A stretch of 64,000 nucleotides of DNA from Erysipelatoclostridium sp. An173 (GTDB lineage Bacteria; Bacillota_I; Bacilli_A; Erysipelotrichales; Coprobacillaceae). Where the stretch lies: the NCBI RefSeq assembly GCF_002160495.1, contig NZ_NFKR01000003.1, positions 62,001 to 126,000 on the forward strand, in the 5' to 3' direction. The notes under the pieces are model-generated. The model saw only the letters and a program-made list of their open reading frames with translations. It had not been told where the DNA came from and made no database searches. Shown in pieces: positions 39,963 through 54,328 of the stretch; within the stretch, counting starts at the first letter, position 1; each line of letters starts with the position of its first letter. The translations under genes and the position numbers were made by a program.

Positions 39963-40961
39963 ATGAAAACAGTAAAATTAGGAAACACAGATATAGAAAT
40001 TAGTCCAGTTGGTCTAGGGTGTATGGAATTTACCCACGCTTATGGCAAACCGATTGAAAAGCAGGAAGCAGTTAAAATAATTCTTAAGGCATATGATTTA
40101 GGATATACTTTTTTTGATACAGCTCAAAGATATACTGGAGTATATCCTGATGGAACAATTGCTTATAATGAAGAAGTTGTTGGCGAAGCTTTGAAAGATA
40201 TTCGTCATAAAGTAGTTATCGCTACTAAATGTGGAATTACAATGATTGATGGTAAAAGAACTTTAGATGCAAGACCTGAAACAATTAAAAAAACATTGAA
40301 TGAAAGTTTAAAAAGATTACAAACTGACTATGTAGATTTATATTATTTACATAGTATTGATCCTAATACACAAATTGAAACTGTCGCTAAAACAATGAAA
40401 GAATTATATTTAGAAGGAAAAATTAAAGCATGGGGAATTTCACAAGTGGATGAAGAAACGCTAAGAAGAGCACATAAAGTTTTTCCAGTTAGCGCAATTC
40501 AAAATAGATATTCAATGATGGCAAGAGATGAAGAAAAGATTTTTGATACTTGTAAAGAACTAGGAGTTACATTTGTAGCGTTTTCACCAATGGCGAATGG
40601 CTTTTTAACAGGCACTTATCATGGTGAAAAAATAAAAGAGGATCAAAGTGATTTTAGAAATTTAATGCCTCAATTTACTAAAGATGGCTATGAAGAATCT
40701 AAAGAACTATTATCATATCTTCAACAACTTGCAGATGAAAAACATGCTACAATGGGATAAATTTCTTTAGCATGGATGGAAAATAAAGACATAGATATTG
40801 TCCCAATTCCAGGAAGTAGAAAATTAGAACGACTAAAAGAAAATTTTGATAGTTGTAAAATAGAGCTTACTAAAGATGAAGTTAATAAAATTGATGATGT
40901 ATTAAATAAGATGAAAATAGGACCAGTGTATTTAGGAGCAAAAAATAAATCTAAAAAGTAA
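39963..40961 (+). pseudogene. Aldo/keto reductase with one in-frame stop
   Basis: Reads as a YhdN/AKR13-like enzyme: IEISPVGLGCMEFTHAYG, TFFDTAQRYTG (Asp, Tyr), IATKCGI (Lys), DLYYLHSIDPN (His), IQNRYSMMARD and FSPMANGFLTG. After KHATMG a TAA stands at 40758-40760, where homologues have Gln (ATxxQISLAW); the same frame continues ISLAWMENKDIDIVPIPGSR and ends KNKSKK. A CAA-to-TAA change explains it. Read through, the protein is 332 residues, normal for the family. The active-site residues lie before the stop but the NADPH phosphate-binding segment (IPGSRK) lies after it. Confidence 0.85.
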
Positions 40962-40970
40962 TCTATTATT

Positions 40971-40993
40971 AAAAGCCTCAATGTGAGGCTTTT
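40971..40993. terminator. Bidirectional terminator
   Basis: AAAAGCCTCA (40971-40980), loop ATG, TGAGGCTTTT (40984-40993); serves the aldo/keto reductase on plus and the LysR remnant on minus. Confidence 0.8.
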
Positions 40994-41511
40994 ATAAACT
41001 TAACAAATTTTCTTCAATGATATGTCGATATTGATTTAATAAAGTATTATTCTTATCATTTTGTCTGCGTATTTCATAAATCTTCATTTTTAATTCAGGA
41101 GTAGGAATACCAACTATATGTAATTACCTCTTTTCTTTATTGCTCATTGGAATTCCAATTGAAAAAGCATCAGTTTCACTAACAATCTTACTACGCAAAG
41201 AATGGTGATCAACTTCGATAGTTTTATGTGGATTAATATATTTTTGATAAGTGTCATAAGCGCCAGGTCTTTGGTTAATAAAATTAATAAATGGATAATT
41301 CCAAAGTCTTTCCTTAGAAAAATCATTTAGAATAGGATGATTTTCTCGAACATTAATTTGACAAACAGATTCCTTTAAACAATAGATTATTAAATTATGA
41401 GATAATGCAAAATCTTTAACTTGTTTTTCCATTGATGTAGGAATAATAAAATAAGCTACATCGATGATTTGCTGATATGTCTTTTCTAAAGCATCTTCTA
41501 CAGCACAAAAT
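40992..41511 (-). pseudogene. Second LysR-family remnant (C-terminal domain only)
   Basis: The minus frame reads CAVEDALEKTYQQIIDVA, then MEKQVKDFALSHN, LWNYPFINFIN, DHHSLRSKIVSETDAFSIG, a LysR effector-binding domain. A TAA at 41126-41124 interrupts after KEKR, and the same frame continues LHIVGIPTPELKMKIY to TAA at 40992. The N-terminal half, including the HTH, is missing: at about 41503-41511 the sequence changes into a MATE transporter fragment on the other strand. Confidence 0.7.
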
Positions 41512-41922
41512 TATAGTAATAATTCATATAATCGTATTAAAAAAGGAGCTAAAGATACTTTAAAGATTACAGTTTTATTAAGTTTAATAGTCGCTGTATT
41601 AGCACACTTTTTTAGTAGTGAATTTATGACTTTATTCGTAAATAAAAATGAACTACATATTATTTCTTTAGGAGTTCAATATATTTCTTTTACATCGTTT
41701 TGTTATTTTATTTTAGGTATAAACTTTATTGTTCGTTTTGTTTTAACCGGGGTTGGTGAATCATCAGTACCTCTTGGAGTTGGAATTCTTGAAATAATTG
41801 TTCGTTGTTTAGGAACATATTTTTTAGTTTATCCATTAGGTTTTCAAGGAATGATTTATATTAATCCATTATGTTGGGGAACTTCAATTCTATTAGTTGT
41901 TTGTCTTTATCCATATCTTTAA
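41503..41922 (+). pseudogene. MATE efflux protein remnant (C-terminal third)
   Basis: Open frame from about 41503: AQNYSNNSYNRIKKGAKDTL, then MTLFVNKNELHIISLG, FILGINFIVRFVLTGVGES and a last helix ending YPYL. This fits the second half of the C-terminal bundle of a MATE (NorM/DinF) exporter, usually 440-460 residues. No start codon or RBS; its 5' end is fused to the LysR remnant, so a deletion joined two genes of opposite direction. Confidence 0.7.
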
Positions 41923-42135
41923 AAAAAAGCATTTAAAAATTATAATGTAAAAACACTATAGTTATTAATAATTAATCTATATTTCAGGGTTTAATCTAAT
42001 CTTATTAAAGACAGTTTTAAATCCTTTTTTTATTAGAAAATAGTTAGTATAATTGAAATATATTGATAATCGAGAATGTAGTTAGATTGTTTATGTAATA
42101 TTATCGTGGTAGAATAAAAAAAGTAGGTGAAAAGG
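41923..42135. other. Intergenic region before the sensory operon
   Basis: AT-rich, no ORF. TATTAT-like hexamers occur near 42100 (TAATATTAT), so the promoter of the 42136-46348 operon lies here. The TGACA repeats seen at 46372-46433 are absent, arguing against strong autoregulation by that operon's response regulator. Confidence 0.4.
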
Positions 42136-43089
42136 ATGAAAAAAATTAATCGTAAATCAGTATACATTGTCATTATTTTAATAGTTGCTTTAATTACAAC
42201 ATTGATTTATAAGGAATATCAGTCACCATCAACCCAAAATCGAGTTTTTGGAGTAACGTATATGACAATGAATAACCCTTTTTATGAAGTTATTAATAAT
42301 GAATTAATAAAGGTTATTGAACAACATGAAGATCAACTTTTAGTTCGTAATCCGGCTTTAGATGTTGATAAACAAATTGAACAAATTTATTCATTCATTG
42401 ATAGGCAAGTTGATGGCATTTTTATAAATCCTATTGATTCACAAAAAATCACGCCCGCATTAAAAGCGGCACATGAAGCAGGAATACCTGTTATTATAGT
42501 AGATGCTCCTGTTGAAAATCCGCGGTTAGTAGATAGTACAATAGTTTCTGATAATTATGATGCAGGCGTACAATGTGCACGTGATATGATGAAAAAAATG
42601 GATTCGGCACAAATTATGTTATTAAAGCATACAAATGTCAAATCTGCCAAAGATCGTATTGACGGTTTTTTAGATACAATTAGTGGAAATTCACAATATC
42701 AGGTTATTGATGAAGGAGAATGTGAGGGACAATTAGAATTAGCAATGCCTTTGATGGAAGAAATGCTAGATAAAAATAGCAATGTTGATGTTGTAATGGC
42801 TTTGAATGATCCTAGTGCATTGGGGGCATTAGCAGCTTTAGAATCACGCCATATTAATGATGTTATAGTTTATGGTATAGATGGGACACCAGATTTAAAG
42901 TCGTTGATTAATAGCAATGAAATGGTAGCAGGGACTGTTGCACAATCACCAATTTCAATTGGAAATATCGCTGGCAAAAAGATGTACGAATTATTGTCAG
43001 GCAAAGATATTGAAGAAGAAATTATTATTCCAGTAAATTTAATTAATAAGGAAAATATTTCCTTTTATGATGAAACGGGGTGGCAATAA
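42136..43089 (+). CDS. Membrane-anchored sugar-binding protein (Peripla_BP_4/RbsB-like)
   Basis: 317 residues from the ATG at 42136; a GTG three codons earlier is part of the TAGGTG site. A single N-terminal helix (about 8-28) without lipobox Cys anchors it. The binding fold shows VFGVTYMTMNNPFYEVINNE, QVDGIFINPIDSQKI, AGIPVIIVDAPVE, STIVSDNYDAG, SAKDRIDGFLDTI and IYGIDGTP-like (here VYGIDGTPDL): the ribose/galactose-type two-lobe architecture. No ABC permease or ATPase is nearby. Its stop shares a base with the kinase ATG (TAATG). It is probably the ligand sensor for that kinase. Confidence 0.88.
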   Translation: MKKINRKSVYIVIILIVALITTLIYKEYQSPSTQNRVFGVTYMTMNNPFYEVINNELIKVIEQHEDQLLVRNPALDVDKQIEQIYSFIDRQVDGIFINPIDSQKITPALKAAHEAGIPVIIVDAPVENPRLVDSTIVSDNYDAGVQCARDMMKKMDSAQIMLLKHTNVKSAKDRIDGFLDTISGNSQYQVIDEGECEGQLELAMPLMEEMLDKNSNVDVVMALNDPSALGALAALESRHINDVIVYGIDGTPDLKSLINSNEMVAGTVAQSPISIGNIAGKKMYELLSGKDIEEEIIIPVNLINKENISFYDETGWQ

Positions 43090-44414
43090 TGATTTATTCA
43101 CATCGTAAAACATTGTCGATTTTACATAATACAATGTCAATATTAAATCTAATAATCGTTCTTTTTTACGGAACTGTGATTCTTTTAACCACTCGTTATA
43201 TTATTTTATCACAATTATCAAGAGACTTTTTAGATAATATTGATTACATACCTCATCATCCTTTAAAAGTTTTTTTTGGTTCATTATTTCTTTATGGTAT
43301 TTTAATTTTTATTATGTATGGTCGTAATGAGAATGTTACCACTCATAAGTATATGAATATTTTTTATAGCATTATCGAGATAATAGTAAGTTTTGCATTA
43401 ATTTATAGTATATATATGGGATATAATGGAATTTTATTTTTAGTATTTTGTGATTGTATTTTTCATTTAAAAGATGGTAGATATTCTAAATGGTTCATGG
43501 TGATATTGGTTATTGTATATCTAATATCTAGTTATGATGTTTTTTCAGCAATGTTTCCAATGGTAAGTGTCAATGACTATTTTCAAGTCTATGGATCTAA
43601 TATTTCTGGTGTATTTATGATTGTCAAAGCATGTTTAGAAACAATTAATATAATTTTGTTTATTAGTTTCATGATTGTTTATCTTGCAGATGAAATTCAA
43701 GAAAATGAACATATTAGTGAAGAATTAAATATGATTAATCAAGTGAATAAAGAATTACAAAATTATGCTGCAATAACTGAAAAAATAGGTGAAAATAATG
43801 AAAGAAAACGTTTGGCAAGAGAAATACATGATACTTTAGGTCATGCATTAACGGGGATTGCTGCGGGAATAGATGCTTGTTTAGCAATGATTGAAATTAA
43901 TCCTCAAGCTACTAAGCAACAATTAGAGGTTATTTCTAAGGTTGTACGTCAGGGAATAAAAGATGTACGTAATTCATTAAATAAACTTCGTCCAGGAGCA
44001 TTAGAAGAGCATAGTTTTAAAGAAGCTATTGAGCGGATGATAGATGAGTTTTCTAGTGTAAGCGATTTAACGATTGAACTAAATTATCAATTAAATAATA
44101 TTGATTTTGAAAAAAATAAAGAGGATATCTTATTTCGTATCATTCAAGAATGTATCACTAATGCTTTAAGACATGGACATGCAACATTTGTCGGTATTGA
44201 TATTTATCAGGAGATGGATTTTTTATACCTAAAGATACAAGATAACGGGGCTGGGTGTAAAAATATTAAATATGGTTTTGGATTAACTCAAATGAAAGAA
44301 AGGGTAGCTATTATCAATGGTGAAATTTATTTTGCAGGTGATAATGGATTTTTAACAATTGTCAAAATACCAATACAAAGGGGAGAAAAATATGGTGAAA
44401 GTAGTAATAGCTGA
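43089..44414 (+). CDS. Histidine kinase, HisKA_3 (LiaS/DesK-type), multi-pass
   Basis: 441 residues from the ATG at 43089 with GGGGTGG upstream. About six hydrophobic segments fill residues 10-205, a short coiled region follows (NEHISEELNMINQVNKEL), then the HisKA_3 box RLAREIHDTLGHALTGI with His247 and a C-terminal ATPase domain with IIQECITNALRHGHA (N-box), DNGAGC (G1) and YGFGLTQMKERV (G2). It lacks a recognisable extracellular sensor domain, so the solute-binding proteins encoded on either side of the TCS genes are candidate input partners. It overlaps the regulator gene by 23 bases. Confidence 0.9.
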   Translation: MIYSHRKTLSILHNTMSILNLIIVLFYGTVILLTTRYIILSQLSRDFLDNIDYIPHHPLKVFFGSLFLYGILIFIMYGRNENVTTHKYMNIFYSIIEIIVSFALIYSIYMGYNGILFLVFCDCIFHLKDGRYSKWFMVILVIVYLISSYDVFSAMFPMVSVNDYFQVYGSNISGVFMIVKACLETINIILFISFMIVYLADEIQENEHISEELNMINQVNKELQNYAAITEKIGENNERKRLAREIHDTLGHALTGIAAGIDACLAMIEINPQATKQQLEVISKVVRQGIKDVRNSLNKLRPGALEEHSFKEAIERMIDEFSSVSDLTIELNYQLNNIDFEKNKEDILFRIIQECITNALRHGHATFVGIDIYQEMDFLYLKIQDNGAGCKNIKYGFGLTQMKERVAIINGEIYFAGDNGFLTIVKIPIQRGEKYGESSNS

Positions 44415-45066
44415 TGATCAAGAATTAATAAGAGAATCACTGAAAATAGTTTTAGGGACTCACGAAGATATTCAAGTAGTTGCCACTGCAGTGGATGGAT
44501 TTGAAGTATTAAAAATTTTAGAACGAGAAAAAGTAGATATTATTTTGATGGATATTAGAATGCCAGGTATGGATGGGGTATATTGTACTAAAGTTGTCAA
44601 AGAAAAATATCCTGAAACAAAAATTATTATTTTAACAACTTTTGATGATGATGATTTTGTTTTTAGCGCTTTAAAATACGGTGCTAGTGGTTATCTGTTG
44701 AAGGGAGTAGGAATGGATGAGTTATATCAAGCTATTTTAACAGTAAATAGTGGAGGAGCAATGATTAACCCGGATATTGCTACTAAAGTATTTAGTATGT
44801 TTTCAAAGATGTCGCAAAATAATTTAGCTATTCAAGTTGACGAAGAAGCTATTCAGGATATCAATCAACCTGAATGGCGAGTTATTCAGCAGGTTGCATT
44901 TGGTTTATCTAATAAAGAGATTGCTCAAAAACTCTTTTTATCAGAGGGAACAGTAAGAAATTATTTGAGTTCAATATTGTCAAAGTTAAATTTAAGAGAT
45001 CGTACTCAGTTAGCTATTTGGGCTGTTCAGACCGGATTAACAACGAGGGATTTAAATAATGAATAA
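44392..45066 (+). CDS. NarL/LuxR-type response regulator
   Basis: 224 residues from the ATG at 44392 (AAAGGGGAG upstream). Receiver: KVVIADDQELIRESL, VDIILMDIRMPGMDG with Asp54, ILTTFDDDDFV and YLLKGVG with the conserved Lys. Output: a GerE helix-turn-helix (about 155-215), VAFGLSNKEIAQKLFLSEGT and VRNYLSSILSKL. NarL-type regulators bind inverted repeats as dimers; a long inverted repeat with TGACAAT arms in the PTS promoter downstream is the likely target. It overlaps the next gene by eight bases. Confidence 0.92.
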   Translation: MVKVVIADDQELIRESLKIVLGTHEDIQVVATAVDGFEVLKILEREKVDIILMDIRMPGMDGVYCTKVVKEKYPETKIIILTTFDDDDFVFSALKYGASGYLLKGVGMDELYQAILTVNSGGAMINPDIATKVFSMFSKMSQNNLAIQVDEEAIQDINQPEWRVIQQVAFGLSNKEIAQKLFLSEGTVRNYLSSILSKLNLRDRTQLAIWAVQTGLTTRDLNNE

Positions 45067-46348
45067 GAAAAAAATTATTTGTATTTTATTAGCTGTAGTA
45101 TGTGTTTTATTAATTATTTGGCAACCTCAAAAAATAACATTAAAGATTGGTATTTTTGCAGGAAGTAATTGGAATGTGCCTAATGGTGATTGTTATCAAA
45201 TTATTGATCAGGTTATTGAGAGATTTGAAAAAAAATATCCAATGGTTAATGTTGAATATGAAAGCGGAATTATAAAAGATGATTATTCACAATGGCTATC
45301 TTCGCAATATCTTAAAGGGGAAGAACCAGATGTATTTATGATATTAAGTGAAGATTTCAATACTTTAAGTGCTCTGGGAGCTTTAAAGGATTTGGATTAT
45401 TTAATCCAGCAGGATACACAATTTAATAAAGATGATTATTATGAAAGTGCTTTGGATACGGGAAAATATCATGGTGATCAGTATGCATTACCATACGAAA
45501 GTAATCCGACATTAATGTTCGTCAATAAAACGTTGCTAAAAAATGAAAATATAGAGATTCCCGATAATAACTGGACATTAGATGATTTTTATGAAATTTG
45601 TAAACAGATTACAAAGGATACTAATAACGATGGACAAATTGATCAGTATGGTTGTTATAATTATGATTGGCTAGATTCAATTTATAGTCATGAAATTAAT
45701 TTATTTGATGATGATGGAGATGAGTGTTATTTAAGCCAGGAATCTGTAAAGAGTGCTTTATCTTTTGCACAAAGATTAACGGAACTAAATCAAGGTTACA
45801 CAGTTACCTCTCAGGATTTTGATACTGGTAAAGTTGCATTTGCACCAATGACTTTTGCAGAATATCGAACTTACAAACCTTATCCATATAAAGTAAAAAA
45901 ATATTCACAGTTTGAATGGGATTGTGTTAAAATGCCAGGGATAACTCAAAAAACTGGAAGTGAAGTGTCATCTTTATTAATGGGAATTTCTTCACGTACC
46001 TCTTATGAAAAAAAAGCCTGGGAATTTTTAAAAATGTTAACGTATGATCAAGAATCTCAAGAAAATTTATTCCGTTATTCGCAAGGAATATCATCTTTAA
46101 AAACTGTTATCCAATCTTCAAAAGCTTTAAATATGTTGAGTGATGAAGAATTAGGAGATACACAAGTTGATTTAAGTTTATTAAATGAGGTTATGCAAAA
46201 TACAATAAGTCAAAATCAATTTAGAAAATATAATTCGGCATTAAGTATGATGGATACTCAAATTCAAAACATTATGAGAAATTGGCAAGATTTAGATTTA
46301 TCATTAATGTCTTTACAAAATGAAGTTAATGAATTTTTAAGAGAATAG
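45059..46348 (+). CDS. Extracellular solute-binding protein, family 1, membrane-anchored
   Basis: 429 residues with one N-terminal helix (about 5-22, no lipobox Cys) and an SBP_bac_1 fold: KIGIFAGSNWNVPNG, PMVNVEYESGIIKDDYS, LKGEEPDVFMILSEDF, YALPYESNPTLMFVNKTLL, then a tail with a short Gln/Asn-rich helix. Similar proteins feed oligosaccharide ABC importers, but none is encoded here. Overlap with the regulator gene ties it to the two-component system; it may be a second ligand sensor or a co-receptor. Its 3' end forms part of the terminator. Confidence 0.87.
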   Translation: MNKKKIICILLAVVCVLLIIWQPQKITLKIGIFAGSNWNVPNGDCYQIIDQVIERFEKKYPMVNVEYESGIIKDDYSQWLSSQYLKGEEPDVFMILSEDFNTLSALGALKDLDYLIQQDTQFNKDDYYESALDTGKYHGDQYALPYESNPTLMFVNKTLLKNENIEIPDNNWTLDDFYEICKQITKDTNNDGQIDQYGCYNYDWLDSIYSHEINLFDDDGDECYLSQESVKSALSFAQRLTELNQGYTVTSQDFDTGKVAFAPMTFAEYRTYKPYPYKVKKYSQFEWDCVKMPGITQKTGSEVSSLLMGISSRTSYEKKAWEFLKMLTYDQESQENLFRYSQGISSLKTVIQSSKALNMLSDEELGDTQVDLSLLNEVMQNTISQNQFRKYNSALSMMDTQIQNIMRNWQDLDLSLMSLQNEVNEFLRE

Positions 46349-46370
46349 TTTGTAACTATTCTCTTTTTTT
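46341..46370 (+). terminator. Terminator of the sensory operon
   Basis: GAGAATAGTT (46341-46350), loop TGT, AACTATTCTC (46354-46363), followed by seven T. It overlaps the stop codon of the solute-binding protein gene. Confidence 0.9.
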
Positions 46371-46371
46371 A

Positions 46372-46433
46372 TATGACAATTGTCATACTAATAATCTGTT
46401 GATTGTCATTAATAAAATGTGACAATAGACAGA
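46372..46433 (+). promoter_or_regulatory. Double operator in the mannose-type PTS promoter
   Basis: Site 1 is the 16-bp palindrome TATGACAATTGTCATA (46372-46387). Site 2 is an interrupted repeat: TCTGT (46395-46399), ATTGTCA (46402-46408), 11 bases, TGACAAT (46420-46426), ACAGA (46429-46433), symmetrical apart from one two-base step. Both share the half-site TGACAAT. They lie 58-119 bases before the first PTS gene and right after the terminator of the two-component operon, the expected place for its LuxR-type regulator to bind. Confidence 0.65.
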
Positions 46434-46490
46434 TGGAATGAATGAGTTTTATTGATAGAATTTAAGTGTCGAAAGAGGAGGGAATAAAAA

Positions 46491-46913
46491 ATGAGATATG
46501 TAGTTATGGTCAGTCATGGTCAATTTGCAAATGGATTAAAAGATGCGCTTATGATGTTGGCAGGACAACGTGAAGATGTTATAGCTTCAGGTTTAGAAAA
46601 CGGAAAAAGTGCTGATGAATTTGCACAAGATTTTGAAAAGACTATTGATTTTATCAATCAAGATGATGAAATCATTTTGCTTGGTGATTTAATAGGGGGT
46701 TCACCACTTACTACAGCAATGAATGTTATTCATGAAAAAAATATGGATGAACATTGCATCATTATTGGTGGTATGAATTTGCCATTAGCATTAACAACTG
46801 TTCTTATGAAAGACACATTAGATAAAGAAACATTTTTACAACAAGTTTTGCATGAGGGACAAACAGCTTTAAAAGAATTCAAAATTGAAAATGATGAAGA
46901 CGATGATATTTAA
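46491..46913 (+). CDS. Mannose-family PTS EIIA
   Basis: 140 residues. MRYVVMVSHGQFANGLKDAL carries the phosphorylated His9, followed by a DDEIILLGDLIGGSPLTTAM loop with the conserved Asp, and a Gly-Gly-Met-Asn segment. It takes phosphate from HPr for the EIIB below. RBS GAGGAGG. First gene of the transport operon and located immediately after the operator pair. Confidence 0.94.
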   Translation: MRYVVMVSHGQFANGLKDALMMLAGQREDVIASGLENGKSADEFAQDFEKTIDFINQDDEIILLGDLIGGSPLTTAMNVIHEKNMDEHCIIIGGMNLPLALTTVLMKDTLDKETFLQQVLHEGQTALKEFKIENDEDDDI

Positions 46914-46927
46914 AGGAGGAAAAAATT

Positions 46928-47419
46928 ATGTCAGTTTCATTTATTCGTATTGATGATCGGATGATTCATGGTCAAACATGTACACGTTGGGCTCGTGAAT
47001 ATCCTTGTGATGGGTTAATTGCTGTTAACGATAAGGCAGCAAAAAATGATGTTCTTAAGGCCGCTTATAAAGCAGCAAGTGGAAAAAAGACATTTGTATG
47101 GACATTAGCTGATTTTGAAAAAAAGAGTCAGAAAGTATTAGATAGTGATACACGTTATTTCTTAATCACTAAAAATCCAATTGATATGTGTAAAATTTTA
47201 GTAGATCAAAATTTTAAATGTGGTATTGATACAGTTATTGTTGGACCATGCAATGATAGAGAAGGTGCAGTTAAATTGGGAAATAATCAATCAATTACTC
47301 AAGAAGAGGCAGATGCATTTGAAAAAATAGCAAAAGCTGGCTATAAAATCAAATTCGCTTTATTACCTGATGTATCAATAGGAACATGGGATGATTTTAA
47401 AGGAAAATTTGGTTATTAA
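46928..47419 (+). CDS. Mannose-family PTS EIIB
   Basis: 163 residues. FIRIDDRMIHGQTCTRWARE contains the phosphorylated His14; the rest (VNDKAAKNDVLKAAYKAA, VGPCNDREGAVKLGNNQSI) follows the family. Met and Cys-Thr replace the usual RLIHGQV residues around the active site, which suggests a sugar other than plain mannose or fructose. RBS AAAGGAGG. Confidence 0.93.
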   Translation: MSVSFIRIDDRMIHGQTCTRWAREYPCDGLIAVNDKAAKNDVLKAAYKAASGKKTFVWTLADFEKKSQKVLDSDTRYFLITKNPIDMCKILVDQNFKCGIDTVIVGPCNDREGAVKLGNNQSITQEEADAFEKIAKAGYKIKFALLPDVSIGTWDDFKGKFGY

Positions 47420-47446: not shown

Positions 47447-48286
47447 ATGGAAATTAGTTGGATTCAAGCGGCTTTGCTAGGATTATTCGCTTGTTTATCA
47501 AGTATGCCTGGTTTAGGAGGAACGTCAATCGGTAACTATACATTAGGACGACCATTAATTGGTGGTTTAGTGTGTGGTATTATTTTAGGGGATATTTATA
47601 CTGGTATTTTAGTCGGGGTTGCAATGCAAGTTGTATATATTGCATTGGTTACACCTGGTGGAACAGTTTCAGCAGATGTTCGTGCAGTAAGTTATATTGG
47701 TATTCCATTAGCAATGATTGCATTGAAGAGCTATGGTTTAGATGCTGGTAGTGCTGATGGGCAAGCAATGGCTACATCTTTTGGTACAATGGTTGGAACT
47801 TTAGGAACAGTTTTATTCTATGGTACTGCAACAATCAATCTTGTTTGGCAACATATGGGATGGAAAGCTGTTGAAAACGGAAACTTTAAAAAATTATATT
47901 TAGTTAATATGGGATTACCTTGGATCTCACACATTATTTGTTCTTTTATCCCAACATTAATCATGTGTAAAATGGGGGCACCAATGGTAGATTTAATTAA
48001 GAGTTATTTACCAATGGATGGAATTGCAATGATGACTTTATTTACAGTTGGTTCTTTACTTCCATGTGTCGGAATTGCAATTTTATTAAAACAAATTGTA
48101 ACTAAAGCTATTGATTTTATTCCATTTTTCTTTGGATTTACTCTAGCTGCTGCTTTAGGTATCAATCTTGTTTCTGCAACAATTATTGCTGGAATGTTTG
48201 CGTTAATTAATTACAGAATTAAAATGTTGACACTAAACAAAACGGTAGCAGTATCAGATGATGAAGATGATGAGGAGGATATTTAA
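47447..48286 (+). CDS. Mannose-family PTS EIIC
   Basis: 279 residues, polytopic. GLFACLSSMPGLGGTSIGNY, RPLIGGLVCGIILGDIYTG and VAMQVVYIALVTPGG are typical of ManY/AgaC-type subunits; an acidic tail (DDEDDEEDI) ends it. With EIID it forms the membrane channel. RBS AAAGGAG. Its tail encodes the GAGGAGG site for EIID. Confidence 0.92.
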   Translation: MEISWIQAALLGLFACLSSMPGLGGTSIGNYTLGRPLIGGLVCGIILGDIYTGILVGVAMQVVYIALVTPGGTVSADVRAVSYIGIPLAMIALKSYGLDAGSADGQAMATSFGTMVGTLGTVLFYGTATINLVWQHMGWKAVENGNFKKLYLVNMGLPWISHIICSFIPTLIMCKMGAPMVDLIKSYLPMDGIAMMTLFTVGSLLPCVGIAILLKQIVTKAIDFIPFFFGFTLAAALGINLVSATIIAGMFALINYRIKMLTLNKTVAVSDDEDDEEDI

Positions 48287-48287
48287 A

Positions 48288-49121
48288 ATGGATAAAAAGT
48301 TAACAAAAAAGACTCTTACAAAGTCATTTCACAATTGGTATTATGGGAATTTAACATGTTTTTCTCAAGAACATATGCAAACATTTGGATATTTGTGTTC
48401 AATGCTACCTGTTGTTGAAGAATTATATAATAAAAAAGAAGATAAAGAAAAAGCAATGAAAACTTATACAGCTTTCTTTAATACCGAACCACAAATTGGA
48501 TCAGTTATTGTTGGGATGACAGCTGGACTAGAAGAAGCTCGTGCCAATGGGGAAGATGTTGACGATGAAACAATTAATGGGTTACGTGCTGGGTTAATGG
48601 GACCATTAGCAGGAATTGGAGATTCGCTAGTTGTTGGAACAGTTATACCTATTTTATTAGGGGTAGCTTTAGGAATGTCAAGCGGCGGATCACCATTAGG
48701 AGCGATATTCTATATTATTGTATGGAACTTATTTGCTTACTTTGGAATGAAATTCTTATATTTTAAAGGATACGAATTAGGTGGAAAAGCAGTTGATTTT
48801 TTAGTCGGACCACAAGGAGAAGCATTAAGAGAATCAATCACTATGTTAGGTGGTATTGTTATTGGTGCTGTAGCTGCTACATGGGTTACTGTTACTACTA
48901 ATTTTACATTAACAGCTCAAGGTGCTAAAGAACCATATTTAGAATTACAAAAAACATTAGACAGTGTTTATCCAGGATTTTTAACAGCTGCATTTATTAT
49001 GCTTTGCTGGTATTTATTAGCTAAAAAGAAAATGTCACCAATTAAAGTAATGTTATTATTGGTTGTTATTGCCTTTGTTGGTGTATTAATTGGATTCTTT
49101 AATCCAGGTTTACAATATTAA
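48288..49121 (+). CDS. Mannose-family PTS EIID
   Basis: 277 residues from the ATG at 48288, which has GAGGAGG (48272-48278) upstream; a start 30 bases earlier would overlap EIIC and lacks an RBS. LTKKTLTKSFHNWYYGNLTC replaces the usual W-x-W-Q-x-S/FN-YER-Q segment, with SFHNWYYGN equivalent to its second half; GLRAGLMGPLAGIGDSLVVG is the conserved loop. It completes the permease. Confidence 0.92.
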   Translation: MDKKLTKKTLTKSFHNWYYGNLTCFSQEHMQTFGYLCSMLPVVEELYNKKEDKEKAMKTYTAFFNTEPQIGSVIVGMTAGLEEARANGEDVDDETINGLRAGLMGPLAGIGDSLVVGTVIPILLGVALGMSSGGSPLGAIFYIIVWNLFAYFGMKFLYFKGYELGGKAVDFLVGPQGEALRESITMLGGIVIGAVAATWVTVTTNFTLTAQGAKEPYLELQKTLDSVYPGFLTAAFIMLCWYLLAKKKMSPIKVMLLLVVIAFVGVLIGFFNPGLQY

Positions 49122-49136
49122 AAAGGAGATGAAGAT

Positions 49137-49403
49137 ATGGATGCAAAACTTAAAAATGCATATATTGCAGAAGTACAATATCAAACAAAAATGTTAAACC
49201 ATTTAAAAAAATGGTTAAGAAACCTTATTATTTTTTCCTCAATATCCTTAGTTCTTGTTCTGTTTGGTGCATCCATTCATCCATTCATGCAAATACTGGG
49301 AGTTGTATTGATGATTGTTAGTATTCTTGCATGTGTTTTAGTTGGGCTTGGATATAAAAATGGGCGCAACAATATTTGTAAAATTATAGATAATATAAAA
49401 TAA
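49137..49403 (+). CDS. Small two-helix membrane protein in the PTS operon
   Basis: 88 residues: amphipathic N-terminal helix (KNAYIAEVQYQTKMLNHLKK), two hydrophobic segments (about 30-48 and 53-72) and a basic end. RBS AAAAGGAG. It lies 15 bases after EIID. It resembles no family I can name; it could be an accessory subunit comparable in place with ManO-like small proteins, but not in sequence. Confidence 0.7.
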   Translation: MDAKLKNAYIAEVQYQTKMLNHLKKWLRNLIIFSSISLVLVLFGASIHPFMQILGVVLMIVSILACVLVGLGYKNGRNNICKIIDNIK

Positions 49404-49460: not shown

Positions 49461-50264
49461 ATGAATCAAATAGTATTTAGTGATGTTGATGGAACGTTAT
49501 TAAATGATCATCACGAGATTACGTTTTTAACTAGAAAAGCTATTCTTGAATTAGAAAGTAAGAAAATTCCATTTGTTATTGTTTCTGCAAGAAGTCCTTC
49601 GGGAATTTTGTCAATTTTGAAAAAATATAATATTAAAGGAACTATTATTGCATATAGTGGTGCATTAATAATTGATAGCAAATTAGACATTATTTATACT
49701 CAGAGTATGAATGTAAATTATGCAGTAAATATTATTAAATATCTTGAAAAGGAGCATTTTGATTTATCATGGTGTGTGTATTCTTTTGATCAATGGCTAG
49801 TAAAAAATTGCAATGATTCAAGAATTCAAAATGAAGAAAATATTGTTAAAGTAAAGTCACAACAAACAACAATCGATCAATTATCTCAATTAACTGCTAT
49901 TCATAAGATTTTATGTATTTGTAATCCACAAAAAACATTATCAATAAAAGAAAAAATCCAGTCACATTTTAATAACTGTACTATTACTCAATCATCCAAT
50001 AATTTAATAGAAATAATGGATCAAAATGTTAATAAAGGTACTGCGATAAAAAAACTATGTGAGTTATGGCAAATACCATTGGATAATACAATTGCATTTG
50101 GTGATCAGTATAATGATTTAGAAATGTTGAAGATAGTAAAATATGGGTATGCAATGAAAAATGCCCCCAAAAATATTCAAGACCAGGTAAAAAGAGTGAC
50201 CTTGGACAATAACCATGATGGGATATATCATGCATTATTGAAGTTAAAAATAATTGAAAAGTAA
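49461..50264 (+). CDS. Cof-type HAD-IIB phosphatase
   Basis: 267 residues. VFSDVDGTLLNDHHEIT holds the Asp nucleophile and Asp acid, VIVSARSPSGI the Ser/Thr motif, and IAFGDQYNDLEMLKIVKYGYAM the acidic motif III with Mg2+ ligands; the insert domain between motifs II and III defines the Cof/IIB type. These enzymes dephosphorylate sugar phosphates. Its place after the PTS suggests control of intracellular sugar phosphate, perhaps to avoid stress. RBS AAGGAGG. Confidence 0.9.
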   Translation: MNQIVFSDVDGTLLNDHHEITFLTRKAILELESKKIPFVIVSARSPSGILSILKKYNIKGTIIAYSGALIIDSKLDIIYTQSMNVNYAVNIIKYLEKEHFDLSWCVYSFDQWLVKNCNDSRIQNEENIVKVKSQQTTIDQLSQLTAIHKILCICNPQKTLSIKEKIQSHFNNCTITQSSNNLIEIMDQNVNKGTAIKKLCELWQIPLDNTIAFGDQYNDLEMLKIVKYGYAMKNAPKNIQDQVKRVTLDNNHDGIYHALLKLKIIEK

Positions 50265-50282: not shown

Positions 50283-52007
50283 ATGAATTGTAAAATGAAT
50301 TATGATAAATATCCAGAAACGAAAATTGCTGGATTTGATAAAGAAGTTTTTGGAACTTTATTAGCTATGGAAAAAGAGCTATCAACAGCAACACAGGCTG
50401 TTAATTGTCTTGTTGTAGATTGTTATCCTGGAGTAGATGATGAGGTTTTAAATTTTATTCAAGATGTTTATGAACCTAAAATATTAATTAGAAGTGAAGA
50501 TATTTTTTATAATAAAGAAAAAATAAACGAATTAATGCAACCACATTTAACAAATGATAGAGTACGTGGAGTTATGTTTTATGGTGTATTAGAAGATTTT
50601 GTAGATTATGAAAAATTGAATGAAGTAAAAAAATTTCTTCAAGATAAACAGAAAATTTTAATATATGGTGTTGGTGCTAGATTAATTAGCAATGGAGATC
50701 TTTATATTTATTGCGATTTAGCAAGATGGGAAATTCAATGTCGTTATCGCCAAGGAATGCCTAATTTTAAAGCGGATAATAATGATGAGGATTCACTACG
50801 AAAAATCAAAAGAGGATTTTTTATTGAATGGCGTATAGCGGATAAATATAAAATGAAAGTATTTGAAAAAGTTGACTATTTTATTGATAGTAATAAATAC
50901 GGTCATTTAAAAATGGTAACCGGCAACGCTTTAAGAAGTGGGTTAAAACAAATAGTAAAACAACCATTTAGACTTGTTCCTTATTTTGATCCCGGTGTAT
51001 GGGGTGGCCAATGGATGAAAGAACATTGTGGCTTAGATCCTAAAGAAAAAAACTATGCTTGGAGTTTTGATGGTGTTCCTGAAGAAAACAGTTTATATTT
51101 AAGATATGGAAATGTTCGAATTGAAATACCAGCTATGGATTTGGTTTTATATCAGCCAGTAGAATTGTTAGGTATAAAAAATTATTGCCGCTTTGGAGCT
51201 GAATTTCCAATTCGTTTTGATTTTTTAGATACAATTGATGGTCAAAATTTAAGTTTACAAGTTCATCCTTTAACAGAATATATCAAATCACATTTTGGAA
51301 TGACTTATACTCAAGATGAAAGTTATTATATATTAGATGCACAAAATCATGGTGGAGTATATCTTGGACTTAAAGAAAATATTAATCCCGAGGAAATGAT
51401 TGATGACCTTAAAGTAGCACAGTTAGGTAAAAAAACATTTGATGCTGATAGGTATGTTAATTTTTTTCCAGCTAAAAAACATGATCATTTCTTGATACCG
51501 GCAGGAACAATTCATTGTTCCTCTTCAGGATGTATGGTTTTAGAAATTAGTGCTACTCCATATATATTTACATTTAAGCTATGGGATTGGAATCGGTTAG
51601 GATTGGATGGTTTTCCAAGACCAATCCATATAGAAGATGGTAAAAATAATATTCAATGGGATAGAACTACACAATGGGTAAAAAATAATCTGGTTAATAA
51701 TATTGAAATTATTCATCAGGATAATGATTATTTAGAAGAAAAAACTGGTTTGCATGAGTTAGAATTTATAGAGACAAGAAGATTTACTACTAAAAAAAGG
51801 ACTTATCATTCTTCAAAGAAAGGAGTACATATGCTTAATTTAGTAGATGGTTCCAGTGCTGTTATTGAAAGTCCAAATGGTGCTTTTGAACCATTTATTG
51901 TACATTATGCGGAAACATTTATTATTCCTAGTGCAGTAAACGAGTACACTATTAGACCATATAATAAAGGTGAAACAATAAAATTTATCCAGGCATATGT
52001 TAGATAA
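50283..52007 (+). CDS. Mannose-6-phosphate isomerase, class I, with extra N-terminal domain
   Basis: 574 residues (562 if the ATG at 50295 is used). The C-terminal part from about residue 232 is a type I isomerase: PYFDPGVWGGQWMKEH, LDTIDGQNLSLQVHPLTEY (Gln and His zinc ligands), YYILDA, IPAGTIHCSS (His ligand) and a late cupin strand region. The first roughly 230 residues form a separate domain with an alternating alpha/beta pattern (CLVVDCYPGVD, KILIYGVGARLIS, YIYCDLARWEIQCRYRQG) that looks like a P-loop kinase fold without a P-loop, but I cannot assign it. It likely converts the PTS product to fructose 6-phosphate. Confidence 0.85.
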   Translation: MNCKMNYDKYPETKIAGFDKEVFGTLLAMEKELSTATQAVNCLVVDCYPGVDDEVLNFIQDVYEPKILIRSEDIFYNKEKINELMQPHLTNDRVRGVMFYGVLEDFVDYEKLNEVKKFLQDKQKILIYGVGARLISNGDLYIYCDLARWEIQCRYRQGMPNFKADNNDEDSLRKIKRGFFIEWRIADKYKMKVFEKVDYFIDSNKYGHLKMVTGNALRSGLKQIVKQPFRLVPYFDPGVWGGQWMKEHCGLDPKEKNYAWSFDGVPEENSLYLRYGNVRIEIPAMDLVLYQPVELLGIKNYCRFGAEFPIRFDFLDTIDGQNLSLQVHPLTEYIKSHFGMTYTQDESYYILDAQNHGGVYLGLKENINPEEMIDDLKVAQLGKKTFDADRYVNFFPAKKHDHFLIPAGTIHCSSSGCMVLEISATPYIFTFKLWDWNRLGLDGFPRPIHIEDGKNNIQWDRTTQWVKNNLVNNIEIIHQDNDYLEEKTGLHELEFIETRRFTTKKRTYHSSKKGVHMLNLVDGSSAVIESPNGAFEPFIVHYAETFIIPSAVNEYTIRPYNKGETIKFIQAYVR

Positions 52008-52815: not shown

Positions 52816-53296
52816 ATGATTACGATATTGGTTGTAGATGACGATAAAAATACTCGTTTATTTATGAAAAGTTTATTAGAAAACGAGAATTATAATGTTG
52901 TTTTGGCTAATGATGGTAAAGATGCTTTAGAGTGTTTAGATCAAAAAGCAATTGATTTAATGATCGTTGATATTATGATGCCTAATTTTAATGGTTTCAG
53001 CTAAGCAAAAAACGATTGATCGTAAAATGGGATATTTAGTAGGAATTGATGATTATATGAGCAAACCAGTTGATGAAGAAGAGTTTATTTTAAAAATAAA
53101 AGCATTACTTCGTCGAGCTAAGATTAATGATGAACGAAAGATTCGCATTGGTGATGTGGTTTTAGATTATGACTCTTTTACGGTATCAAGAAAAGATGAA
53201 GTAGTTGAATTGCCAAAAAAGGAGTTTGAATTACTTTATAAATTACTATCTTATCCAGGAAAAATTTTTACCCGAATTCAATTAATGGATGAAATC
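52816..53296 (+). pseudogene. OmpR-type response regulator remnant with internal deletion and lost 3' end
   Basis: ITILVVDDDKNTRLFMKSL and DLMIVDIMMPNFNGF form the receiver start, with the acceptor Asp. At about 52995 a deletion of roughly 50 bases removes helix 3 to strand 4; the other frame resumes VSAKQKTIDRKMGYLVGIDDY and MSKPVDEEEF, then a winged-helix start RIGDVVLDYDSFTVSRK and KKEFELLYKLLSYPGK. At DEI (53296) it is replaced by an Rpn-type sequence, so the recognition helix is missing. No cognate kinase is present. Confidence 0.75.
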
Positions 53297-54328
53297 TGTA
53301 AAGTGCTTCTTAGTGATATGCAGATATTAGCGCATATTTTAAAATATGTCGTTGATGAATTAAAAGATTTCACGGTTGAAGAGATTGTGAAGATCATCCC
53401 ATCAAATATTACTCATGAACCGGTATATCCAGGTAATCGAGTAGTTAAAACAAGCAGTAATGAATCAATTATTCCTGGTGAAGGATTGCTAAGATTTGAT
53501 GTTTGTTTTGAACTAGATATTTCTGAAAAAAACAGTCAAAATGGCTGTAAGATACATAGATATCGAGGCTCAAAATAGTATTTACAATACTTATGAGATA
53601 GTAACAAGAGGGATTGCTTATACAAGTAGACTGATATCTAAGCAAGTTAAAACAGTAATTGATGTTGATAATTATCAAAAACTGCAAAAAAGCTATTCAA
53701 TCTGGCTGATGCTACAGGCACCGCTAAAATATGATGGAACGATCAGGACATATCATATCCAAGAAGAAGTATTATCAGGGGTAGAATTAAAAGAAAAAGG
53801 AACATACGACAAGATTAAGATAGCAACGATCTATACAAGCAGCAAACATGAAGTAAGCCAAAAATATGAAAAGAATGATGAATTATTAAGACCGGTAATG
53901 TTATTATTTGGAATGAGTGGAAGAAGTGCAAAAGAGATAAAGGAAATACTGGAAAAAGAATATGGTTTTAAAATGAGTAATGAACTAAAAGAAGGAGTGG
54001 AAAATATGTGTAACTTAGCACAGGGATTAATAGTAGAAAATCAGGCAATAGGAAGAAAAATTGGAAAAAAGAGGGGCTGATAGAAGGAAGAAAAGCTGGT
54101 AAAACAGAAGGTTTGTTAGAAGGACGAGCTAAAGAAAAATATGAAATACTAATAAATTTATTAGAACAAACCAATATTTCATTAAAGCAAGTAATGAAAA
54201 TAGTTGGATTAGTAAAGGAAGAAGAAATTAAAGAAATAACAGATAAATTAATAGCTGATTTATCATTAAAAGAAGGTTATATAAATGGAAGACCAACTAA
54301 TATAACAATAGAAAGAATAATTGGTTAA
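53297..54328 (+). pseudogene. Rpn/PD-(D/E)XK family nuclease remnant, frameshifted
   Basis: Without its own start, it continues in frame from the response regulator remnant: VLLSDMQILAHILKYVVDEL, NITHEPVYPGNRVVK and GLLRFDVCFELDI. Around 53535 the frame shifts by one and goes on VRYIDIEAQNSIYNTYEIV with RGIAYTSRLIS, the catalytic E-x-Q core (EAQ) of this family. A second shift at the A6 run near 54068 separates the C-terminal helical region (EGLLEGRAKEKYEILINLLE). The N-terminal part is missing. It differs clearly from the intact Rpn protein at 23802-24716. Confidence 0.75.

Follow-up and report, generated by a model that had tools for sequence, protein, structure and literature searches.

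The 64,000-nucleotide (nt) window analyzed here, a stretch of the genome of Erysipelatoclostridium sp. An173 (G000, estimated completeness 100%), contains four overlapping genes encoding two solute-binding proteins (SBPs), a sensor histidine kinase and a response regulator, followed by the genes of a mannose-family phosphotransferase system (PTS), all on the forward strand. The first gene of the four-gene cassette (42136..43089) encodes an RbsB-like SBP that matches Peripla_BP_4 (E 2e-47) and was also aligned by profile; its start was taken as the ATG at 42136, and an alternative GTG at 42127 is possible. It overlaps by 10 nt the kinase gene (43080..44414), whose product matches HATPase_c and, with an E of 1e-18, HisKA_3, which we take to be the HPK7 class. 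The kinase gene overlaps by 23 nt the gene of a NarL/LuxR-type response regulator with Response_reg and GerE domains (44392..45066), which starts at an ATG internal to a listed TTG open reading frame (ORF), and the regulator gene overlaps by 8 nt the gene of a family-1 SBP (45059..46348) that matches SBP_bac_8 and SBP_bac_1. All of these Pfam matches are over cut-off, and together with the ORFs they confirm the four overlapping genes described in the first-pass annotation, which was made from the sequence alone.

The EIIA gene of the PTS begins 142 nt after the family-1 SBP gene. The PTS is complete, with EIIA (levD-like, 46491..46913, EIIA-man), EIIB of the sorbose subfamily (levE-like, 46928..47419, PTSIIB_sorb), EIIC (levF-like, 47447..48286, EII-Sor) and EIID (levG-like, 48258..49121, EIID-AGA; a later start near 48282 is possible), each over its Pfam cut-off. 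A hairpin scan placed a terminator-like hairpin with a T run at 46339..46365 on the forward strand, closing the four-gene unit; terminator-like sites number 4 in the region against 2.7 expected in shuffles, and hairpins resembling this one are also present in relatives, as judged by eye. Because this hairpin and a promoter-like region separate the cassette from the PTS, the sequence suggests that they are probably two transcription units.

The SBPs of the window lack a lipobox according to a simple pattern, which bears out the first-pass reading of binding proteins without a lipobox Cys, and the RbsB-like SBP has a hydrophobic segment at residues 7-32. An external, membrane-associated placement with an N-terminal anchor is predicted for both from N-terminal sequence alone. 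Residues 1-240 of the kinase hold five hydrophobic segments, and an AlphaFold2 model made with 55 sequences (mean predicted local distance difference test score 81, predicted template modeling score 0.50) shows the membrane part as helices joined by short loops and has a long helix that runs into the dimerization domain. Neither the model nor the hydrophobicity profile revealed an extracytoplasmic sensor domain, in agreement with the earlier description of a multi-pass HisKA_3 kinase without a sensor domain of its own, and the signal should therefore enter via the SBPs or the membrane part. A Foldseek search with the kinase model gave, among the best 50 of 633 matches, only the soluble parts of kinases (DesK, VraS, and others) and no match for the membrane part.

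The closest described counterpart is the LevQRST system of Streptococcus mutans. According to the available excerpts of the published account (PMC3043104), it consists of the kinase LevS with up to five membrane domains, the regulator LevR and two ABC (ATP-binding cassette)-type sugar-binding proteins, encoded in the order levTSRQ with levDEFG directly downstream and with no functional ABC transporter encoded near the operon. The same excerpts report that efficient activation of levD and fruA requires all four components, that fructose and mannose induce the system and glucose hardly does, and that LevR binds the levD and fruA promoters in vitro; similar operons are listed from streptococci, lactobacilli, Clostridium acetobutylicum, and Dorea longicatena. 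LevS has been classed as HPK7 and LevR as NarL (excerpt of PMC3353171), and a dyad at −72 to −59 of fruA has been named the likely LevR target (excerpt of PMC9241797).

The locus in the window has in common with LevQRST two ABC-type SBPs flanking a multi-segment kinase and a NarL-type regulator, the gene order SBP-kinase-regulator-SBP-PTS, a fructose/mannose-type PTS next to the cassette and no functional ABC transporter nearby. Also in common are a kinase, predicted here to have up to five membrane segments and to expose little of itself outside the cell, and a candidate regulator site with dyad symmetry before the target promoter; this site, putative here, also occurs in kinase-less genomes. 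In some relatives, to judge by the palindrome, a fructanase gene may likewise belong to the regulon; in this genome, unlike in the LevQRST system, the cassette has no fructanase gene next to it. By position, the RbsB-like SBP would correspond to LevT and the family-1 SBP to LevQ, with the kinase LevS-like and the regulator LevR-like; LevQ C161 and LevT C149 of S. mutans are close in position to the conserved Cys 181 and 150 here, at most a hint at the same assignment.

The four genes very likely form, as judged from their sequences, a LevQRST-type (levTSRQ) four-component sugar sensor that would activate the adjacent mannose-family PTS. In the scheme we infer, the two membrane-anchored SBPs would detect a hexose outside the cell, probably fructose and/or mannose, and would signal through protein contacts to the multi-pass HisKA_3 kinase, which has no extracytoplasmic sensor domain. 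The kinase would then phosphorylate the NarL-type regulator; bound to the TGACAWWTGTCA-like palindromes arrayed before EIIA, the regulator would activate the PTS. The first-pass annotation had proposed that two extracytoplasmic receptors of different fold signal to one kinase, which turns on the neighboring PTS; synteny, co-occurrence, a candidate operator, and the LevQRST genetics in the excerpts of PMC3043104 support this in part, and the mechanism is probably right. It had also called the arrangement unusual, which is fair, although those excerpts already describe it for S. mutans. A new kind of system was considered and rejected, LevQRST having been published.

Conservation was followed in a sample of 43 Coprobacillaceae genomes, in which the kinase (E 1e-20 or better) was found in 33 and EIIC (1e-80) in 32. 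Both were present in 32 genomes, the kinase only in 1, EIIC only in 0 and neither in 10; in the kinase-only genome the contig stops after the family-1 SBP gene. The neighborhoods of the 32 other kinase-bearing family genomes were fetched, and the same gene order, which the first-pass annotation had suggested looking for in related genomes, is there: EIIA follows a same-order cassette in 28 of the 32 loci, with a gap of at most 164 nt in 22 and of 878-4086 nt in 6, where there is an insertion between the family-1 SBP gene and EIIA (L039, L055, L056, L065, L067, L069). The contig ends within ∼210 nt of the family-1 SBP gene in L041, L046, and L070; it also ends in L051, there after an intervening antisense HAD-like ORF. 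L066 begins within a broken kinase gene. The four-gene order itself is retained in nearly all relatives, and EIIB, EIIC, and EIID are up to 96, 92, and 93% identical, respectively, to relatives in another genus. The insertion in L056 (5323-7675) encodes a TPR protein and an AAA-like protein whose match falls just short of the cut-off.

Comparison of upstream regions identified a palindrome as the proposed response-regulator site. In the window, site 1 is TGACAATTGTCA at 46374..46385; a degenerate second copy, recognized partly by eye, lies 23 bp further on at 46397..46408, and the upstream-region scan gave a third, degenerate copy, TGACAATAGACA, at 46420..46431, which starts 36 nt before a −10-like box of the PTS operon (TAGAAT, 46456..46461, forward strand). 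No −35 consensus for this box was seen by eye; a promoter scan omits the box and is uninformative, with 60 hits found versus 69 expected. Upstream of EIIA, TGACAWWTGTCA is present in all 29 family loci, including the window, exactly in 27 and with one mismatch in 2. The wider test covered upstream regions with a minimum length of 60 nt, 77 in all (29 from the family, 34 from other PTS loci, and 14 from ABC transporter loci) and left out 7 ABC regions shorter than 35 nt and 11 unassigned loci. With at most one mismatch, TGACANNTGTCA occurs upstream of the transporter genes in 74 of the 77 regions, and it is exact in 53, whereas none of the other 59 permuted half-sites exceeds 5 of 77 at one mismatch, and 28 of these controls give no more than 1 exact occurrence.

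By a loose pattern, 55 of the 77 regions (54 of 63 PTS and 1 of 14 ABC regions) have a −10-like box 36 nt downstream of a TGACA-like half-site, and the next best half-site to −10 spacing, 59 nt (36 plus 23), scores 30 versus 55 over the same regions. Since the rows are related, neither the palindrome counts nor the spacing counts are independent events. Of 31 family loci, 18 also have a palindrome copy with at most one mismatch in the ∼260 nt before the first SBP gene; the window does not. Eight of the 29 family loci (L044, L045, L049, L050, L055, L065, L067, L069), but not the window, have cre-like stretches before EIIA by a loose pattern with no control; these may reflect CcpA control.

To place the cassette more widely, named genomes were scanned with the family-1 SBP alignment, and the best 80 of 253 relatives were taken; 14 were dropped as family repeats, leaving 66 loci. 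A PTS follows the cassette in 23 of them and precedes it in 11, a set of RbsABC-type genes adjoins it in 21, and 11 are unassigned because of contig ends or other neighbors. The RbsABC-type set is composed of an RbsB-like gene, an ATPase-like ORF of 470-560 amino acids (aa) and an ORF of 300-380 aa. The one set checked by Pfam, in L123, contains ABC_tran twice and BPD_transp_2, followed by a D-lyxose isomerase, a PfkB kinase, and a class II aldolase. The 11 loci with the PTS genes before the cassette form one clade in the quick tree described below (L127, L128, L135, L143, L153, L154, L158, L165, L172, L177, L178). Of 395 genomes of the class, 22 matched; these come only from the Coprobacillaceae and a single further family of the order. 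Plasmid searches gave no full relative: the SBP matches, among those listed, are 20-27% identical, and the kinase matches cover less than 80% of the query.

In the ABC clade, which is mostly from Clostridia, a separate SBP gene precedes the ATPase gene, and a lipobox was recognized in 17 of the 22 products scored, some of the rest being truncated. That the transporter of this clade has its own SBP fits a dedicated sensing role for the SBPs of the cassette. Of 14 regions before the ABC set, 11 retain the palindrome with at most one mismatch and the other 3 have it with two, and the recognition-helix stretch of the regulator is nearly identical between the PTS and ABC clades among the 22 rows listed. 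A quick tree of the joined kinase and SBP sequences (93 rows, 82 with a known neighbor) needs a single change between PTS and ABC transporter, in one direction or the other; the tree is unrooted, and several long branches meet. We consider it fairly likely that the cassette is a portable four-component sugar sensor, widespread in Bacillota, which has kept one operator while the transporter was swapped between PTS and ABC, and that in the ABC clade the RbsB-like paralog transports and the cassette SBPs only sense.

Both SBPs belong to ABC-type families, and with a clade of relatives carrying the cassette beside RbsABC-type genes, they could instead serve an ABC importer with its permease elsewhere in the genome, the two-component pair being an unrelated neighbor. 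The genome was searched for such a partner. Peripla_BP_4 has five matches genome-wide, and the four besides the cassette SBP all carry a LacI DNA-binding domain; PF01547 has three matches. The single match to the PF02653 permease family adjoins an ABC_sub_bind (PF04392) protein, which is not RbsB-like. All 13 matches to PF00528 permeases were inspected: Pfam assigns two sets to Opp (SBP_bac_5), one to Pst (PBP_like_2), and one with an SBP_bac_6 protein, and by eye only there is one set each of the amino-acid, methionine, polyamine, and thiamine/nitrate-like kinds. A sugar ABC importer was thus not recognized genome-wide among the single PF02653 and 13 PF00528 matches, some of the sets being judged by eye. 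The first-pass statement that neither SBP has a transporter partner holds for the window, and it can be extended to the genome, where the PF02653 and PF00528 neighborhoods gave no permease or ATPase genes paired with either protein elsewhere. ABC genes beside the cassette do occur in one clade of relatives, where they come with the separate, often lipobox-bearing SBP described above. With the four-gene order retained in nearly all relatives as well, service to a distant ABC importer is very improbable, and an orphan ABC importer was rejected for want of a recognized partner in the genome.

Evidence on the ligand comes from neighboring genes, the binding proteins, and the S. mutans system, and it points to fructose and/or mannose as the probable ligand. 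A GH32 profile was built from six of the loci with such a gene nearby, named GH32 by Pfam. The palindrome lies before genes of GH32 fructanases in six family loci, exactly in L049 and L050 and with one mismatch in L052, L053, L056, and L069. GH32 genes also stand beside the PTS in L122, L125, and L138 (Anaerostipes and another Lachnospiraceae). In alignments, the RbsB-like SBP keeps most of the RbsB ribose-pocket residues but lacks the Arg that follows the conserved Asp, and its ligand is therefore likely to be a sugar other than ribose. Its profile matches PDB 2x7x, a "sensor protein," at E 1e-24; this is presumably BT1754 of Bacteroides. BT1754 is a fructose-sensing hybrid two-component protein, which resembles the present system in having an RbsB-like fold in a sensor and differs in that the sensor domain is fused to the kinase and there is no PTS.

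Several observations weigh against parts of this interpretation. The palindrome occurs twice in this genome, equal to the count of a reversed control pattern, and the second copy, checked for a regulon gene, sits inside a coding sequence, read as dnaE; within this genome, it is only placement and conservation that favor the palindrome as an operator. In the family, 41 of 43 genomes hold it, including 8 of the 10 without the kinase, with 1-7 copies of TGACAWWTGTCA (G001, G006, G009, G015, G018, G024, G026, and G029, the last with seven), whereas the reversed pattern mostly occurs 0 or 1 times in the kinase-less genomes. The site is therefore not exclusive to the cassette, and another regulator may use a like site. 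A loose lipobox pattern matches the cassette SBPs of some relatives, in 3 of 32 and 7 of 32 family loci for the two proteins and in 11 of 21 for the RbsB-like SBP of the ABC clade. The likeness to LevQRST, moreover, is one of parts and order, as read from published descriptions.

Taken with the terminator-like hairpin between cassette and PTS, the palindromes of kinase-less genomes would also suit a kinase and SBPs that control something other than the PTS, the adjacency being incidental, and in three relatives (L115, L147, L163) the cassette has neither PTS nor RbsABC-type genes in the available stretch. Such a coincidence is hard to square with the co-occurrence of kinase and EIIC in the family (32/1/0/10) or with a palindrome upstream of the transporter genes for both kinds of transporter, and we regard it as highly unlikely.

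GH32 genes lie near the cassette in no more than 11 of the 98 loci (L049, L050, L052, L053, L054, L056, L069, L122, L125, L138, and, weakly, L157), and the palindrome before them is poor, with 2-4 mismatches, in L054, L122, L125, L138, L157, and two of the three L053 ORFs; the GH32 gene of L054 is short and adjoins a sucrose PTS-like gene, by eye. In this genome, both GH32 genes lie away from the cassette, and one has as neighbors a LacI gene and a PTS gene for a single EIIABC protein. The GH32 link was accordingly rejected as proof of the ligand and kept as support only. Neighbors in other relatives look glycolytic, with enolase, Pgk, and TpiA (by eye) adjoining several loci, or include GH84, at one locus, and the PTS proteins are below every NCBIfam cut-off, the mannose, fructose, and sorbose models included; these points leave other hexoses open as the ligand. 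A cassette that senses glucose, a host-glycan sugar, or an oligosaccharide beside a PTS that is a general glucose/mannose importer would agree with them, with the origin of one SBP in the oligosaccharide-binding family 1 and with the high identity of EIIB, EIIC, and EIID to those of another genus. It agrees less well with the palindromes before GH32 in the six family loci, with the GH32 genes beside the PTS in Lachnospiraceae or with the near-indifference of the S. mutans system to glucose (excerpts of PMC3043104), and we see it as possible, though the less likely choice next to fructose and/or mannose.

Sensing SBPs that act on a kinase and are distinct from the uptake SBP are also described for CuaDSR of Ruminiclostridium cellulolyticum and XylFII-LytS of Clostridium beijerinckii in the available excerpts of PMC10384115. 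Those systems have one sensing SBP and an ABC transporter as target, and CuaS spans the membrane with two helices and exposes a large extracytosolic part, whereas the cassette described here has two SBPs and a short-looped kinase.

Three further genes follow the PTS on the same strand. The first encodes a small membrane protein of 88 aa (49137..49403), found as an ORF after EIID in 27 of the 28 family loci with EIIA, which weakly resembles DUF202, below cut-off. The second, assigned by Pfam and NCBIfam to the Cof-type HAD phosphatases (49461..50264), is at the same place in some relatives only. The third (50283..52007), at the same place in L049 and L050, encodes a 574-aa protein with a distant mannose-6-phosphate isomerase domain: residues 225-455 resemble that enzyme (1qwr, E 3e-10), the protein as a whole has no Pfam or NCBIfam match, and its first ∼220 residues have no match in Pfam, NCBIfam, or structure-profile searches. 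Upstream of the cassette, 39963-41922 of the window holds an aldo/keto reductase ORF that seems short at its C terminus and a MATE-like transporter fragment (by eye), possibly decayed genes, and further downstream, at 52991-54080, the C-terminal piece of an OmpR-type regulator is overlapped by a PD-(D/E)XK transposase-like ORF, below cut-off; both of these downstream pieces look like gene remnants.

The system is of a known kind, and what is added here is a site consensus with its geometry and limits, the breadth of the cassette and the change of transporter, with no claim of priority for the consensus or the ABC version. The analysis extends a sensor known from work on oral streptococci to many other Bacillota, and a concrete candidate operator makes its regulon predictable and testable. 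The loci with PTS and ABC transporters provide natural pairs for testing how two receptors of different fold drive one kinase that has no sensor domain. That the transporter changes while the sensor stays the same suggests that the mode of transport and the detection of sugars by SBPs can be separated.

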